Shown here piece by piece: positions 18,474 to 23,190 of a stretch of DNA of 54,991 nucleotides. Both the position numbers and the translations under genes were made by a program. Numbering within the stretch: the first letter of the stretch is position 1; each line of letters begins with the position of its first letter. The DNA is from Spirochaetales bacterium (GTDB lineage Bacteria > Spirochaetota > Spirochaetia > SZUA-6 > JAFGRV01), in contig JAFGHO010000005.1 of the NCBI GenBank assembly GCA_016930085.1, positions 1 through 54,991 of the forward strand. Direction: 5' to 3'. The notes under the pieces were generated by a model that did not search any database, was not told where the DNA came from, and saw nothing but the letters and a program-made list of their open reading frames with translations.

Positions 18474-18502
18474 TTGATAAGCGGTGTCAAATTACGTATA
18501 CT
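18474..18502 (+). promoter_or_regulatory. Promoter of the CNB-acetate kinase-PduL gene
   Basis: TTGATA (18474-18479), a 17 bp spacer and TATACT (18497-18502). A start near 18509 leaves a leader of about 70 nt before the ATG at 18579. The position of this promoter argues against using the longer upstream open frame. Confidence 0.55.
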
Positions 18503-18578: not shown

Positions 18579-20897
18579 ATGGATATCATGAATTTTTTAT
18601 TGACCAGGGTATCCCTTTTCAGGGGCTTTCCGGAAGACAAGCTGAAAACCCTTGTGGAGGAATCGACGGTGACTACCTTCGAACCGAATGAAGCGGTGAT
18701 CGAGTTCGGGGAGCAGGGCAATTTTCTGGGAGTGCTTTTACAAGGGGAAGCCGACGTGTCGGTTACCGATGACGGCGGAACCCGGCACATAATCGATCTG
18801 CTCAAAGAAGGAGACGTGTTCGGGGAAATGTCGATCATGACCGGGGATAAAACGATCGCCGATGTGATTGGCAAAACACGATGCACGGCGCTTCTTATCC
18901 CGCAGCCCGTGTTTGCAACCACCCTCATCGCTCATCCGCCCGCGATCACCGTTCTGTCAAAAACCATTTCGGAACGGCTCAAGCACTTTGCCTTTGACGA
19001 GAAAGGCCAGGAGATCGCAAAATCGGCATTCAAACGAAGCGAAGATCCATACGGTTTCATGTTGAAAAGCATTAAACCGATGAAGATTCTGGTCATCAAC
19101 TGCGGTTCGTCGTCGCTGAAATACAATCTTTTCGATACGGAGGATGAGGGAAAAACCGCGGAGGGCGGGGTCGAACGGATCGGGGAGGAGGGAACCCTTC
19201 ATGTCTATCATGGTCCCGGCGGGGAGGTCAGAAAGGAACTGCCAAGAGGAAGCCACAGCGAAGCCCTCAAGGCCATGGTGGAAGAGTTGTGTGATGAGAA
19301 AACAGGGGTGATCGGCTCACCGGAGGAGATCGGCGCCGTCGGCCACCGTGTCGTTCACGGCGGGGACAAGTTTATCGGGGCGATGGTGATTACCGATGAG
19401 TTACTCGGAAAAGTCGAGGAGCTTTCCGTTCTCGCCCCCCTTCATAACCCGATCAATCTTCTGGGAATCAGGGAAGCGAAGAAGGTTTTTCCCGGTATCC
19501 CCCACATTGCGGTCTTCGACACTTCCTTTCACCATACCATACCCCCTTACGCTTTTCTTTACGGTATTCCCTATGAATATTACGAAACAAAAAAAATAAG
19601 ACGGTACGGTTTTCACGGCATGTCGCACGCCTATGTGTCGCTGAAGGCGGCAGAGTACCTGAAGCGGCAGTACAACGAACTCGAGATCGTCACCTGTCAT
19701 CTCGGCAATGGCGCCTCTGTCTGCGCGGTCGATCACGGGAGGTCGGTGGATACTTCCATGGGATTTACCCCCACCGAAGGGCTTATCATGGGAACGAGGT
19801 GCGGGAATATCGATCCCGCCATTCTGGTACAGCTTGCAAGGGACGAAGGTATGGGCAGTAAGGAACTCGACCGGCTGATCAATAAGCAAAGTGGTATTCT
19901 CGGTATTTCCGGAATATCCAATGATATGAGGGAGATTCAGAAAGCGGCGGAAGAGGGAAACAACCGGGCGATTTTAGCGATCAAAACCTTCGCGTACCAT
20001 CTGAAAAAATATATCGGCGCCTATATGGCGGCAATGGGCGGCCTCGATGTCCTCGTCTTTACCGGCGGTATCGGGGAAAACAGTGCGGGGGTGAGAAGCC
20101 TTGCCTGTCAGGGACTCGACTGTATGGGTATCAATATCGATGAAAAACTGAACAGGCAGGCCGTTAGACCGGAGGGAGTCTGTGAAATATCAACGCCCTC
20201 TTCCAGTGTGAAAGTACTCGTCATCGCGACAAATGAAGCGCGGATGATCGCGCGGGAATCACTCAAAGTCCTGAAACAGGATCACGTGGAGCGGATTATC
20301 GGCATGCAGGAGAAGATACCCATCCCTATCGAAGTCTCCGCGCACCACCTCCATCTTTCACGGGAACACGTCGAAGCGCTTTTCGGCAAGGGTTACATCT
20401 TGACGAGTATCGCCGGCCTCTCGCAGCCCGGCCAGTTCGCCTGCAGGGAAACGGTCGATCTTATCGGTCCGCGCGGGAAGGTGGAACGCGTGCGGGTCCT
20501 TGGGCCGGAACGGAAGGAGACACAGATAGAAATAGCGATGACCGAACAATACAAACTCGGACTCCAGCCCCCGATACGTGAGTCCGGGGATTTGAGTGGT
20601 TCGCCGGGGGTAACGATCGCCGGACCGCGGTCAACCGTCACGATCGAAAAGGGGGTGATCTGCGCGATGCGCCATATCCATATGTCGACGGAAGAGGCCC
20701 TCCGCCTGGGGCTTCGCGACAGGGATATCGTCCGCGTCCGGGTCGACGGCGAGAGGGAACTCGTCTTCGGCGACGTTATGGTTCGCGTGCATCCCAACTA
20801 CCGGCTGGCCATGCATATCGATACGGATGAAGCGAACGCCGCGGATATTAAAACGGGGATGAAAGGCTATATCGAAGGAATACAAAGCAGGGAATAA
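18579..20897 (+). CDS. Fusion: cyclic-nucleotide-binding domain + acetate kinase + PduL-type phosphotransacylase
   Basis: 772 aa from the ATG at 18579, chosen because AAGGGAG lies just upstream. Residues 12-135 form a cNMP-binding (Crp-like) domain. Its phosphate cassette reads FGEMSIMTGDKTIADV, with Lys where cAMP binders usually have Arg. Residues 168-568 are acetate kinase: INCGSSSLK (Asn174), GHRVVHGG (Arg257), FDTSFHHT (Asp314), RYGFHGMSH, HLGNGAS, MGTRCG (Arg407), FTGGIGENS and TNEAR (Glu553) all intact. Residues 578-768 are PduL: metal-binding SAHHLHLS, LSQPGQFACRETVDLIGP, CAMRHIHMS and MHIDTDEANA. One chain could convert acyl-CoA to acyl phosphate and then to acetate plus ATP, with channelling and nucleotide control. 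It seems monocistronic. Confidence 0.93.
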   Translation: MDIMNFLLTRVSLFRGFPEDKLKTLVEESTVTTFEPNEAVIEFGEQGNFLGVLLQGEADVSVTDDGGTRHIIDLLKEGDVFGEMSIMTGDKTIADVIGKTRCTALLIPQPVFATTLIAHPPAITVLSKTISERLKHFAFDEKGQEIAKSAFKRSEDPYGFMLKSIKPMKILVINCGSSSLKYNLFDTEDEGKTAEGGVERIGEEGTLHVYHGPGGEVRKELPRGSHSEALKAMVEELCDEKTGVIGSPEEIGAVGHRVVHGGDKFIGAMVITDELLGKVEELSVLAPLHNPINLLGIREAKKVFPGIPHIAVFDTSFHHTIPPYAFLYGIPYEYYETKKIRRYGFHGMSHAYVSLKAAEYLKRQYNELEIVTCHLGNGASVCAVDHGRSVDTSMGFTPTEGLIMGTRCGNIDPAILVQLARDEGMGSKELDRLINKQSGILGISGISNDMREIQKAAEEGNNRAILAIKTFAYHLKKYIGAYMAAMGGLDVLVFTGGIGENSAGVRSLACQGLDCMGINIDEKLNRQAVRPEGVCEISTPSSSVKVLVIATNEARMIARESLKVLKQDHVERIIGMQEKIPIPIEVSAHHLHLSREHVEALFGKGYILTSIAGLSQPGQFACRETVDLIGPRGKVERVRVLGPERKETQIEIAMTEQYKLGLQPPIRESGDLSGSPGVTIAGPRSTVTIEKGVICAMRHIHMSTEEALRLGLRDRDIVRVRVDGERELVFGDVMVRVHPNYRLAMHIDTDEANAADIKTGMKGYIEGIQSRE

Positions 20898-21753: not shown

Positions 21754-23190
21754 TCAGATCGATATATCGCCGATTTTTTTTATCGGCACCGCAGGCGGTA
21801 TTTCCGCCGTCGATAATACGGGAAGACGGGGATAGGAGGCATGCGTCAGTTTCCGCACACAGGTTCTCGTTTCCCGCGAGCAGACCAGCACCGGAATAAC
21901 ATCCTCCTCCTTTTTCCCTTGCTTCATTGCCGCATCGAGGCCGGCAAAAAAGTGTTTATACGCACCGGATTCGGCGGGAGAAATCATATCGGTATATTCC
22001 TCCCCGTAATCGAGGAGCTTCCGGTCCCCCTGGGGATTCACGGCAATGACGTGGAGAACCCCGTTTTTATCGAGAAATTGCGAGCAGATGTGAAGCCCGA
22101 GACGTTCCCTTACCTTTTCGACCAGACGTTCGGGTTTTTTCATCTGCGGTCCGTGATCGGCAAGGGTCTCGAGGATGTCGATGATATTCCGGATCGAAAC
22201 GCCTTCGTCGAGAAGGGCGCACAGTACCTGCTTTATTTCCGTTTTACCGAGCAGCCCGGTAATCTCTTCGACAAGGGCCGGGTAGTCGCCGGCGAGACTG
22301 TCCAGGATATTTTTCACTTCCTGTGTCCCTAAAAGCCTCGATGCGTGGTGCCTGATGATCTGAATCAGATGCGTCGTAAGAAGGGTCTGGGTATCCACGA
22401 CCGAATAGCCGCTTCGTTCCGCCTTTTCCCGTACTTCCTCATCTATCCAGATTGCCGGCAGATTGAATGCCGGTTCCGTCGCCGCTTCGCCCCTCACTTT
22501 TTCCCTGACGCGTTTTGTTTCGATGGCAAGGTATTTTGAGATCCGGAGGGTCCCCTTTCCCGCGGCGATCCCCTTGAGGGAGATGCGGTATTCATCGGGT
22601 TCGAGATTCATGTTCGCTCGTATGACAATACGGGGAACGACAAGTCCCAGGGATAAGGCGATTTCCCTGCGGACCCGTGACATCCGCTTGAGAAGTGCGG
22701 TCTGGTCCGTGATCAGGGGTGAAAGACCGAACCCGACTTCGAGCGTGAGGGGATTGAAATAAAGCGGTTCGGAAGGTCCCCGTTCGGAGGGGACGGGATC
22801 TTCGGGATCCGGGGAGAAGGAGGTCGTTCCGTTTTCACGATAGACCAGGGCCTTAAGCCGGAAAACGGAGGAATACTTCCAGTCCTTTTCTTTCAGCGCT
22901 TCACCCGGTTCATACTCGCCGTACAAAGCTTCGGCGAGGCGGGGATAGTGGATGACGGGAGTCCCCCCCGCCCCCGCATCGGCAATCATGGTACCGGCTT
23001 CATCCCCTTTTCCCTTCCGGATGACGCCCGGACCGGGAACGTATGAAAAGGTGAGGCCTCTGAGGAGGGAAAGCGAGGATTTCACTACCTTTTCCGAAAG
23101 GGACAGCGCGACGGCAGTCTTGTTTTCATTGACGATGAGTATATCGGCCGCCTCAGGCGGCTTTTCGTTATTGCTGTCGTTATCCGGCAT
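21754..23190 (-). CDS. Soluble stand-alone FlhA C-terminal-domain protein
   Basis: 478 aa with no transmembrane helix. Residues about 143-478 align by motif with the cytoplasmic domain of flagellar export protein FlhA: NPLTLEVGFGLSPLI, RREIALSLGLVVPRIVIR, EYRISLKGI, EPAFNLPAIWIDEE, GYSVVDTQTLLTTHL, EGVSIRNIIDILETLAD, PVLVCSRETRTCVRKL and LPVLSTAEIPP. The eight-helix membrane domain that forms the export gate is absent. The first 140 residues (DILIVNENKTAVALSLSEKVVK..., plus a linker rich in Pro/Glu) are not from FlhA. In FlhA this domain docks chaperone-substrate complexes; a paralogue could act as a soluble competitor or adaptor. No flagellar gene is adjacent. AAAAGGAAG precedes the ATG. Confidence 0.88.
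   Translation of the reverse strand: MPDNDSNNEKPPEAADILIVNENKTAVALSLSEKVVKSSLSLLRGLTFSYVPGPGVIRKGKGDEAGTMIADAGAGGTPVIHYPRLAEALYGEYEPGEALKEKDWKYSSVFRLKALVYRENGTTSFSPDPEDPVPSERGPSEPLYFNPLTLEVGFGLSPLITDQTALLKRMSRVRREIALSLGLVVPRIVIRANMNLEPDEYRISLKGIAAGKGTLRISKYLAIETKRVREKVRGEAATEPAFNLPAIWIDEEVREKAERSGYSVVDTQTLLTTHLIQIIRHHASRLLGTQEVKNILDSLAGDYPALVEEITGLLGKTEIKQVLCALLDEGVSIRNIIDILETLADHGPQMKKPERLVEKVRERLGLHICSQFLDKNGVLHVIAVNPQGDRKLLDYGEEYTDMISPAESGAYKHFFAGLDAAMKQGKKEEDVIPVLVCSRETRTCVRKLTHASYPRLPVLSTAEIPPAVPIKKIGDISI

Follow-up and report, generated by a model that had tools for sequence, protein, structure and literature searches.

The question raised by this locus is whether one spirochaete gene encodes both enzymes of acetate formation together with a ligand-binding type of domain, and what the three parts might do in a single polypeptide. 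The window, i.e. the whole stretch of DNA that was analysed, comprises 54,991 nucleotides and derives from a 5.36 Mb spirochaete genome that is 96% complete. An uninterrupted open reading frame for 772 amino acids runs on the plus strand from an ATG at 18579 to the stop at 20897, and its translation contains no internal stops. The ATG is preceded by AGGGAGAA, a good ribosome-binding sequence, and agrees with the starts of relatives; the frame of L056 opens one codon before the matching methionine. A longer frame initiated at a TTG and reaching to 18474 also exists. Promoter-like matches in the region were no commoner than chance (4 found, 3.2 expected). The features of the locus are the following.

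18474..18502, plus strand: promoter-like site TTGATA-17-TATACT, 10 of 12 consensus matches, weak and of a chance-level class
18579..20897, plus strand: CNB-AckA-PduL fusion gene, single ORF of 772 aa, identified by domain profiles and orthologues
18597..18983, plus strand: CNB (cNMP-binding fold) domain, residues 7-135, PF00027 57.7 bits, structural Z of 18-20 against the CNBs of PKG, PKA, SthK and Mt-Pat
18822..18866, plus strand: phosphate-binding-cassette segment GEMSIMTGDKTIADV, residues 82-96, with Glu83 kept, Thr92 for the canonical Arg and the conserved acidic Asp95
18984..19079, plus strand: helical linker, residues 136-167, poorly conserved between the domains, with a helix at 141-153 in the model
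19080..20276, plus strand: acetate kinase (AckA) domain, residues 168-566, TIGR00016 487 bits, 12/12 catalytic residues, TM 0.95 to 6ioy, 2iir and 1g99
20277..20318, plus strand: short AckA-PduL linker, continuing the C-terminal AckA helix 553-575
20319..20870, plus strand: PduL phosphotransacylase domain, residues 581-764, PF06130 254 bits, rmsd 1.1 Å to 5cuo over 188 residues

The initial annotation had read this frame as one polypeptide with a CNB, an acetate kinase and a PduL, and a missed stop or frameshift between the parts would have spoken against it. Such an interruption was looked for and none was found. Frameshifts or in-frame stops do occur in the MAG contigs of three relatives (L088, L093, L096), as might be expected if the 772-residue frame were an assembly chimaera or had been created by a sequencing error that joined neighbouring genes. 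Since dozens of full-length single-frame orthologues with 42-71% identity are found independently in unrelated assemblies, we rejected a frameshift, chimaera or other artefact and leave it practically no chance. The single open frame, the Pfam matches and the orthologues confirm the one-polypeptide reading.

All three domains exceed their Pfam cut-offs. The profile cNMP_binding (PF00027) matched residues 33-114 of the CNB fold with 57.7 bits (cut-off 27.5). Acetate_kinase (PF00871) scored 489.7 bits across 392/392 positions, with TIGR00016 of NCBIfam giving 487 bits on the same part (cut-off 293), and PTAC (PduL, PF06130) scored 254.4 bits across 175 of 176 positions, both of its halves being present. 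In an AlphaFold2 model of the whole protein (mean pLDDT 86.5), the AckA part superposed on the solved acetate kinases with a TM of 0.95, the PduL part on 5cuo with a TM of 0.95 and an rmsd of 1.1 Å, and the CNB fold reached a Z of up to 19.9, to 5bv6.

The catalytic set of AckA, which we take to be N7, S10, S12, K14, R91, H123, D148, H180, H208, N211, R241 and E384 in M. thermophila numbering, is present at all 12 positions. Fold and catalytic residues are thus shared with the free-standing acetate kinases 1g99 and 2iir, from which the fused AckA differs in being joined at both ends and in being degenerate in nine relatives. The PduL residues were mapped to rPduL (His48, His50, Glu109, His157, His159, His204, Arg103 and Ser127) with an offset of 542. 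The Zn ligands H590, H592, E651, H699, H701 and H746 and the phosphate residues R645 and S669 are all present (8/8), and they are invariant in all 69-70 sequences covering these positions. The claim that all key residues are present was borne out, and at the level of residues and modelled fold, and only at that level, both enzyme domains appear catalytically competent.

No AckA or PduL other than the fusion was found in its genome. The genome also encodes a true Pta (377 bits with TIGR00651) as well as a Ptb-like protein, whereas a search for a butyrate kinase gave no match. The microcompartment (BMC)-associated PduL of Rhodopseudomonas palustris (5cuo) shares the fold, 46% identity and all Zn and phosphate residues with the fused domain. 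In contrast to it, the fused form is covalently joined to AckA, lacks an encapsulation peptide, as PduL directly follows the AckA helix 553-575, and occurs in a genome where no BMC shell protein (PF00936) was found. The gene stands alone, with a HEAT-repeat protein 188 bp upstream as the nearest gene on the same strand and a convergent gene downstream, and across 41 related loci no operon-like recurring neighbour, BMC or other, was observed. A BMC role was rejected because of the missing shell protein and the lack of a conserved neighbourhood.

Multidomain fusions of AckA and PduL, together with the idea of channelling, were published in 2016 (Erbilgin et al., PMC4784909). The present protein belongs to this family, since it has a PF06130 PduL joined to an acetate kinase in one polypeptide without an encapsulation peptide. 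A CNB is not mentioned there, whereas here one stands in front of AckA; in some members, AckA is dead. The initial annotation would have lost its point if the same fusion were common and already characterised. This is so in part: the AckA-PduL portion is known and the CNB-bearing form recurs across phyla, but no description of the latter was found in the open-access papers searched. Within these papers, three features appear to be undescribed: a fusion that carries a CNB, the Arg-less cassette conserved in that CNB, and the loss of the AckA active site, more than once, inside the fusion.

Because the frame is single, both active sites are intact, the genome holds no other AckA or PduL and no BMC genes, and the architecture is conserved across phyla, we favour, with a probability of roughly 60%, a cytosolic, non-microcompartment bifunctional enzyme that converts acetyl-CoA to acetate and ATP. 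The PduL domain would use acetyl-CoA, possibly also other acyl-CoA, and phosphate to form acyl phosphate, from which the AckA domain would generate the acid and ATP with ADP. With the tether, PduL and AckA would be present in equal numbers (1:1), and the acyl phosphate may have a shorter way to travel. The N-terminal CNB-fold domain would be a regulatory or assembly module, probably one without canonical cAMP binding. The direction of flux, the channelling and the regulation are what we infer for the fusion protein. The ATP-yielding reaction that ends acetate fermentation would then sit in the same polypeptide as a sensor-like domain, and this in bacteria from six phyla or more.

Two findings speak against this bifunctional, regulated enzyme. 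With a bona fide Pta in the genome, PduL is not the sole route for its step, and conservation is lower in the CNB than in either enzyme domain (0.54, compared to 0.63 for AckA and 0.78 for PduL in a 28-protein set), which is compatible with a merely structural role. Channelling of the acyl phosphate is plausible. However, strict channelling is not required, since the genome has this Pta, and it cannot be essential, since the free Pta must share the AckA of the fusion and AckA is dead in nine relatives. We also considered an enzyme that runs mainly in reverse and serves anabolism or syntrophy by activating acetate with ATP to acetyl-CoA. The Pta/PduL-Ack route is also able to run backwards (PMC4784909), and AckA-PduL fusions without a CNB occur in Smithella and other syntrophs. 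Since the fused AckA is the sole AckA in most carriers that have it intact (31 of 40 genomes), and the neighbourhood contains nothing suggesting acetate uptake, we regard a mainly reverse enzyme as unlikely.

The ligand question depends on the phosphate-binding cassette. It had been proposed that Lys replaces the usual Arg in the motif GDKTIADV, and that the ligand may hence not be cAMP. In our alignments Lys91 corresponds to the Pro preceding the Arg of PKA and PKG, and the Arg position itself is occupied by Thr92; the spacing of 9 from E83 to T92 matches that from E200 to R209 in PKA RI-alpha. The Lys-for-Arg reading was therefore rejected as off by one register, whereas the doubt about cAMP gained stronger support through the other residue. 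Among 52 CNBs of the family, position 83 is always Glu and position 82 is Gly in 51, so that the fold and the Gly-Glu of the cassette mark the domain as a CNB. Position 92 is Thr in 35 and otherwise Ala, Ser, Asn, Val, Gly or Met, and Arg or Lys was seen there in none of the 52. The cassette FGE-x-SLMTG is near-invariant. Residue 93 is hydrophobic in 35/52 (here Ile93), residue 95 is acidic in 44/52 (here Asp95), and position 85 is Ser in 35, Ala in 15, and Val and Glu in one each (here Ser85). Thr92 thus stands where the canonical cAMP- or cGMP-responsive domains have their cassette Arg (R209 of PKA RI-alpha, R82 of CRP). With Glu83 invariant and no Arg or Lys at position 92 in the 52 CNBs, canonical cAMP binding by the fusion protein is unlikely, judged from the aligned residues. 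A CNB family that keeps the Glu and lacks the Arg is a candidate for a new bacterial CNB ligand class.

The trypanosomatid PKA has Thr in place of the cassette Arg and Val in place of the Ala, changes that go along with the loss of cAMP binding, but its nucleoside binding is determined mainly by Glu311 (PMC10959531). T318 and V319 of this cAMP-independent, nucleoside-binding regulatory subunit (6flo, 6hyi, 6h4g) correspond to T92 and I93, and the Glu of the GE pair is kept in both. However, the decisive Glu311, at the A202 position, is Ser85 in the fusion protein and Ser or Ala in 50/52 family CNBs. 6h4g and 6hyi were among the top CNB hits of Foldseek, but a second aligner put the CNBs of PKG and PKA first, and the fold comparison alone does not favour the trypanosomatid PKA over these. 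A trypanosome-like nucleoside pocket was therefore rejected and is left as a hint.

The mycobacterial protein acetyltransferase Pat (Rv0998) is regulated by cAMP. Its CNB fold (4avb, 4avc) likewise precedes an enzyme of acetyl metabolism, though a different one, and the fusion protein differs in the Thr at the Arg position. By analogy, a cyclic nucleotide bound to the CNB might switch acetate formation. The genome encodes at least 11 class III cyclase domains, the modelled CNB superposes on cAMP-bound Mt-Pat with a Z of 18, and Glu83 is retained. Yet the phosphate Arg has given way to Thr92 and its small neighbour to Ile93, with Arg or Lys absent from position 92 in all 52 CNBs, and most CNB paralogues encoded in this genome have a basic residue followed by Ser/Thr-Ala at this position (PRSA, KRTA, ARSA, PRTA). 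Conventional gating by cAMP or cGMP is therefore, in our estimate, very unlikely. The absent Arg, together with the low conservation of the CNB and the free Pta, would also fit a CNB that binds no ligand and serves structure or oligomerisation, a role that the fold often has among members that do not bind cNMP; the fusion would then simply fix the stoichiometry. But the invariant Glu83, the near-invariant cassette and the acidic residue 95 indicate a pocket that is apparently maintained rather than a drifting scaffold. We consider such a ligand-free module possible, though somewhat improbable, and retain the bifunctional enzyme with a regulatory or assembly CNB.

The search for CNB-AckA-PduL architectures and their phylum range that the initial annotation had proposed was carried out, and it showed a sporadic occurrence in at least six phyla. 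Full-length orthologues were found in Spirochaetota, Planctomycetota, Fibrobacterota, Myxococcota, Thermodesulfobacteriota, Kiritimatiellota and related groups. For the counts, the fusion protein was used as the query with E <= 1e-140. In the phylum of the source organism, 6 of 296 evenly sampled genomes gave a match, namely the source genome and five without the CNB. The phylum of the planctomycete carrier had 13/294 (9 with the CNB), and that of the Desulfobacteraceae-titled carrier 9/297 (7 with the CNB, one of these frameshifted before PduL). Matches in the phylum of the Kiritimatiellae carrier (5/338) included three with the CNB and two with adjacent separate ackA and pduL frames; in the phylum of the Chitinivibrionales carrier (15/168) there were eleven with three parts, one CNB-AckA without PduL and three with AckA only. 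When close relatives were searched, 6 of 41 genomes had the triple fusion, all from the same family or order as the source organism. These sporadic counts in several phyla are consistent with horizontal spread and loss. In a quick AckA+PduL tree, the triple architecture was clustered and the CNB label needed only two changes (one or two gains or losses), with which a single origin of the CNB in the fusion would be compatible.

Several variants of the architecture were observed. In L097 and L098, ackA and pduL are adjacent separate frames in the order of the fusion, a possible pre-fusion or split state. A CNB-AckA without PduL in Fibrobacterota (L110 / L127:1094-2797) is sister to free AckAs, and PduL appears to have been lost from it. 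A free-standing PduL (L130:3734-4345), 62% identical to the fused domain, was found in a genome of the same order as the source organism. CNB-AckA-PduL, AckA-PduL, CNB-AckA and CNB-dead AckA-PduL form a natural series for probing the roles of the tether and the sensor.

The dead AckAs occur in 9 of 49 triple fusions, where 4-9 of the 12 catalytic residues are replaced. Three of the carriers (L010, L056 and L057) belong to the order of the source organism, L056 also to its family; the other six form a clade in Planctomycetota/Lentisphaerota (L022, L023, L024, L025, L028 and L042). All eight PduL metal and phosphate residues are intact in the nine proteins. In a model of L022, the AckA fold is kept with high confidence (most blocks above 85), and the confidence is low in residues 387-396, which correspond to the MGTR active-site loop and the stretch leading up to it, and in an insertion at 521-543. 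On a careful tree that left AckA out and used the columns of CNB and PduL, four changes were needed to explain the loss of the AckA active site, at least two of them forced by well-supported branches, pointing to two to four independent losses.

Each of the nine genomes with a degenerate fused AckA has a separate AckA with 12/12 catalytic residues, compared to a second AckA in 9 of the 40 genomes with an intact fused AckA (Fisher p = 2.4e-5, with related rows). The independent contrasts number two on well-supported branches and four on all, so few that a sign test cannot reach 0.05. We infer from these sequences that AckA would decay once another AckA takes over, while PduL and the CNB stay. 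The CNB persists in the nine proteins with a dead AckA and in L110, where PduL is missing, and is therefore not the dispensable baggage of one catalytic partner. One could extend this to a family of ligand-gated acyl-phosphate enzymes, where a CNB tuned to something other than a cyclic nucleotide controls PduL via the AckA body, and where AckA, given a second free AckA, repeatedly became a catalytically dead pseudo-kinase and was retained for allostery or as a scaffold; we put this forward tentatively and think it rather unlikely. Among second AckAs, those near a separate PduL in L123, L124 and L125 have the active-site variants R91K, D148E and N211G.

Two other genes of the window were noted. 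On the minus strand, 21754-23190 encodes a soluble protein of 478 amino acids with an FlhB/SctU C-terminal-like stretch at residues 51-112 (E 2e-5) and an FlhA cytosolic domain at 142-476 (E 2e-91). Both membrane halves are absent, and it looks like a soluble FlhBc-FlhAc fusion. Just before residues 51-112 it has NENKTAVAL, where FlhB has NPTHYAVAL. The minus-strand gene at 334-2787 encodes a GH10 xylanase with CBM4_9, CBM3 and a type I dockerin, a cellulosome-type attachment in a spirochaete.
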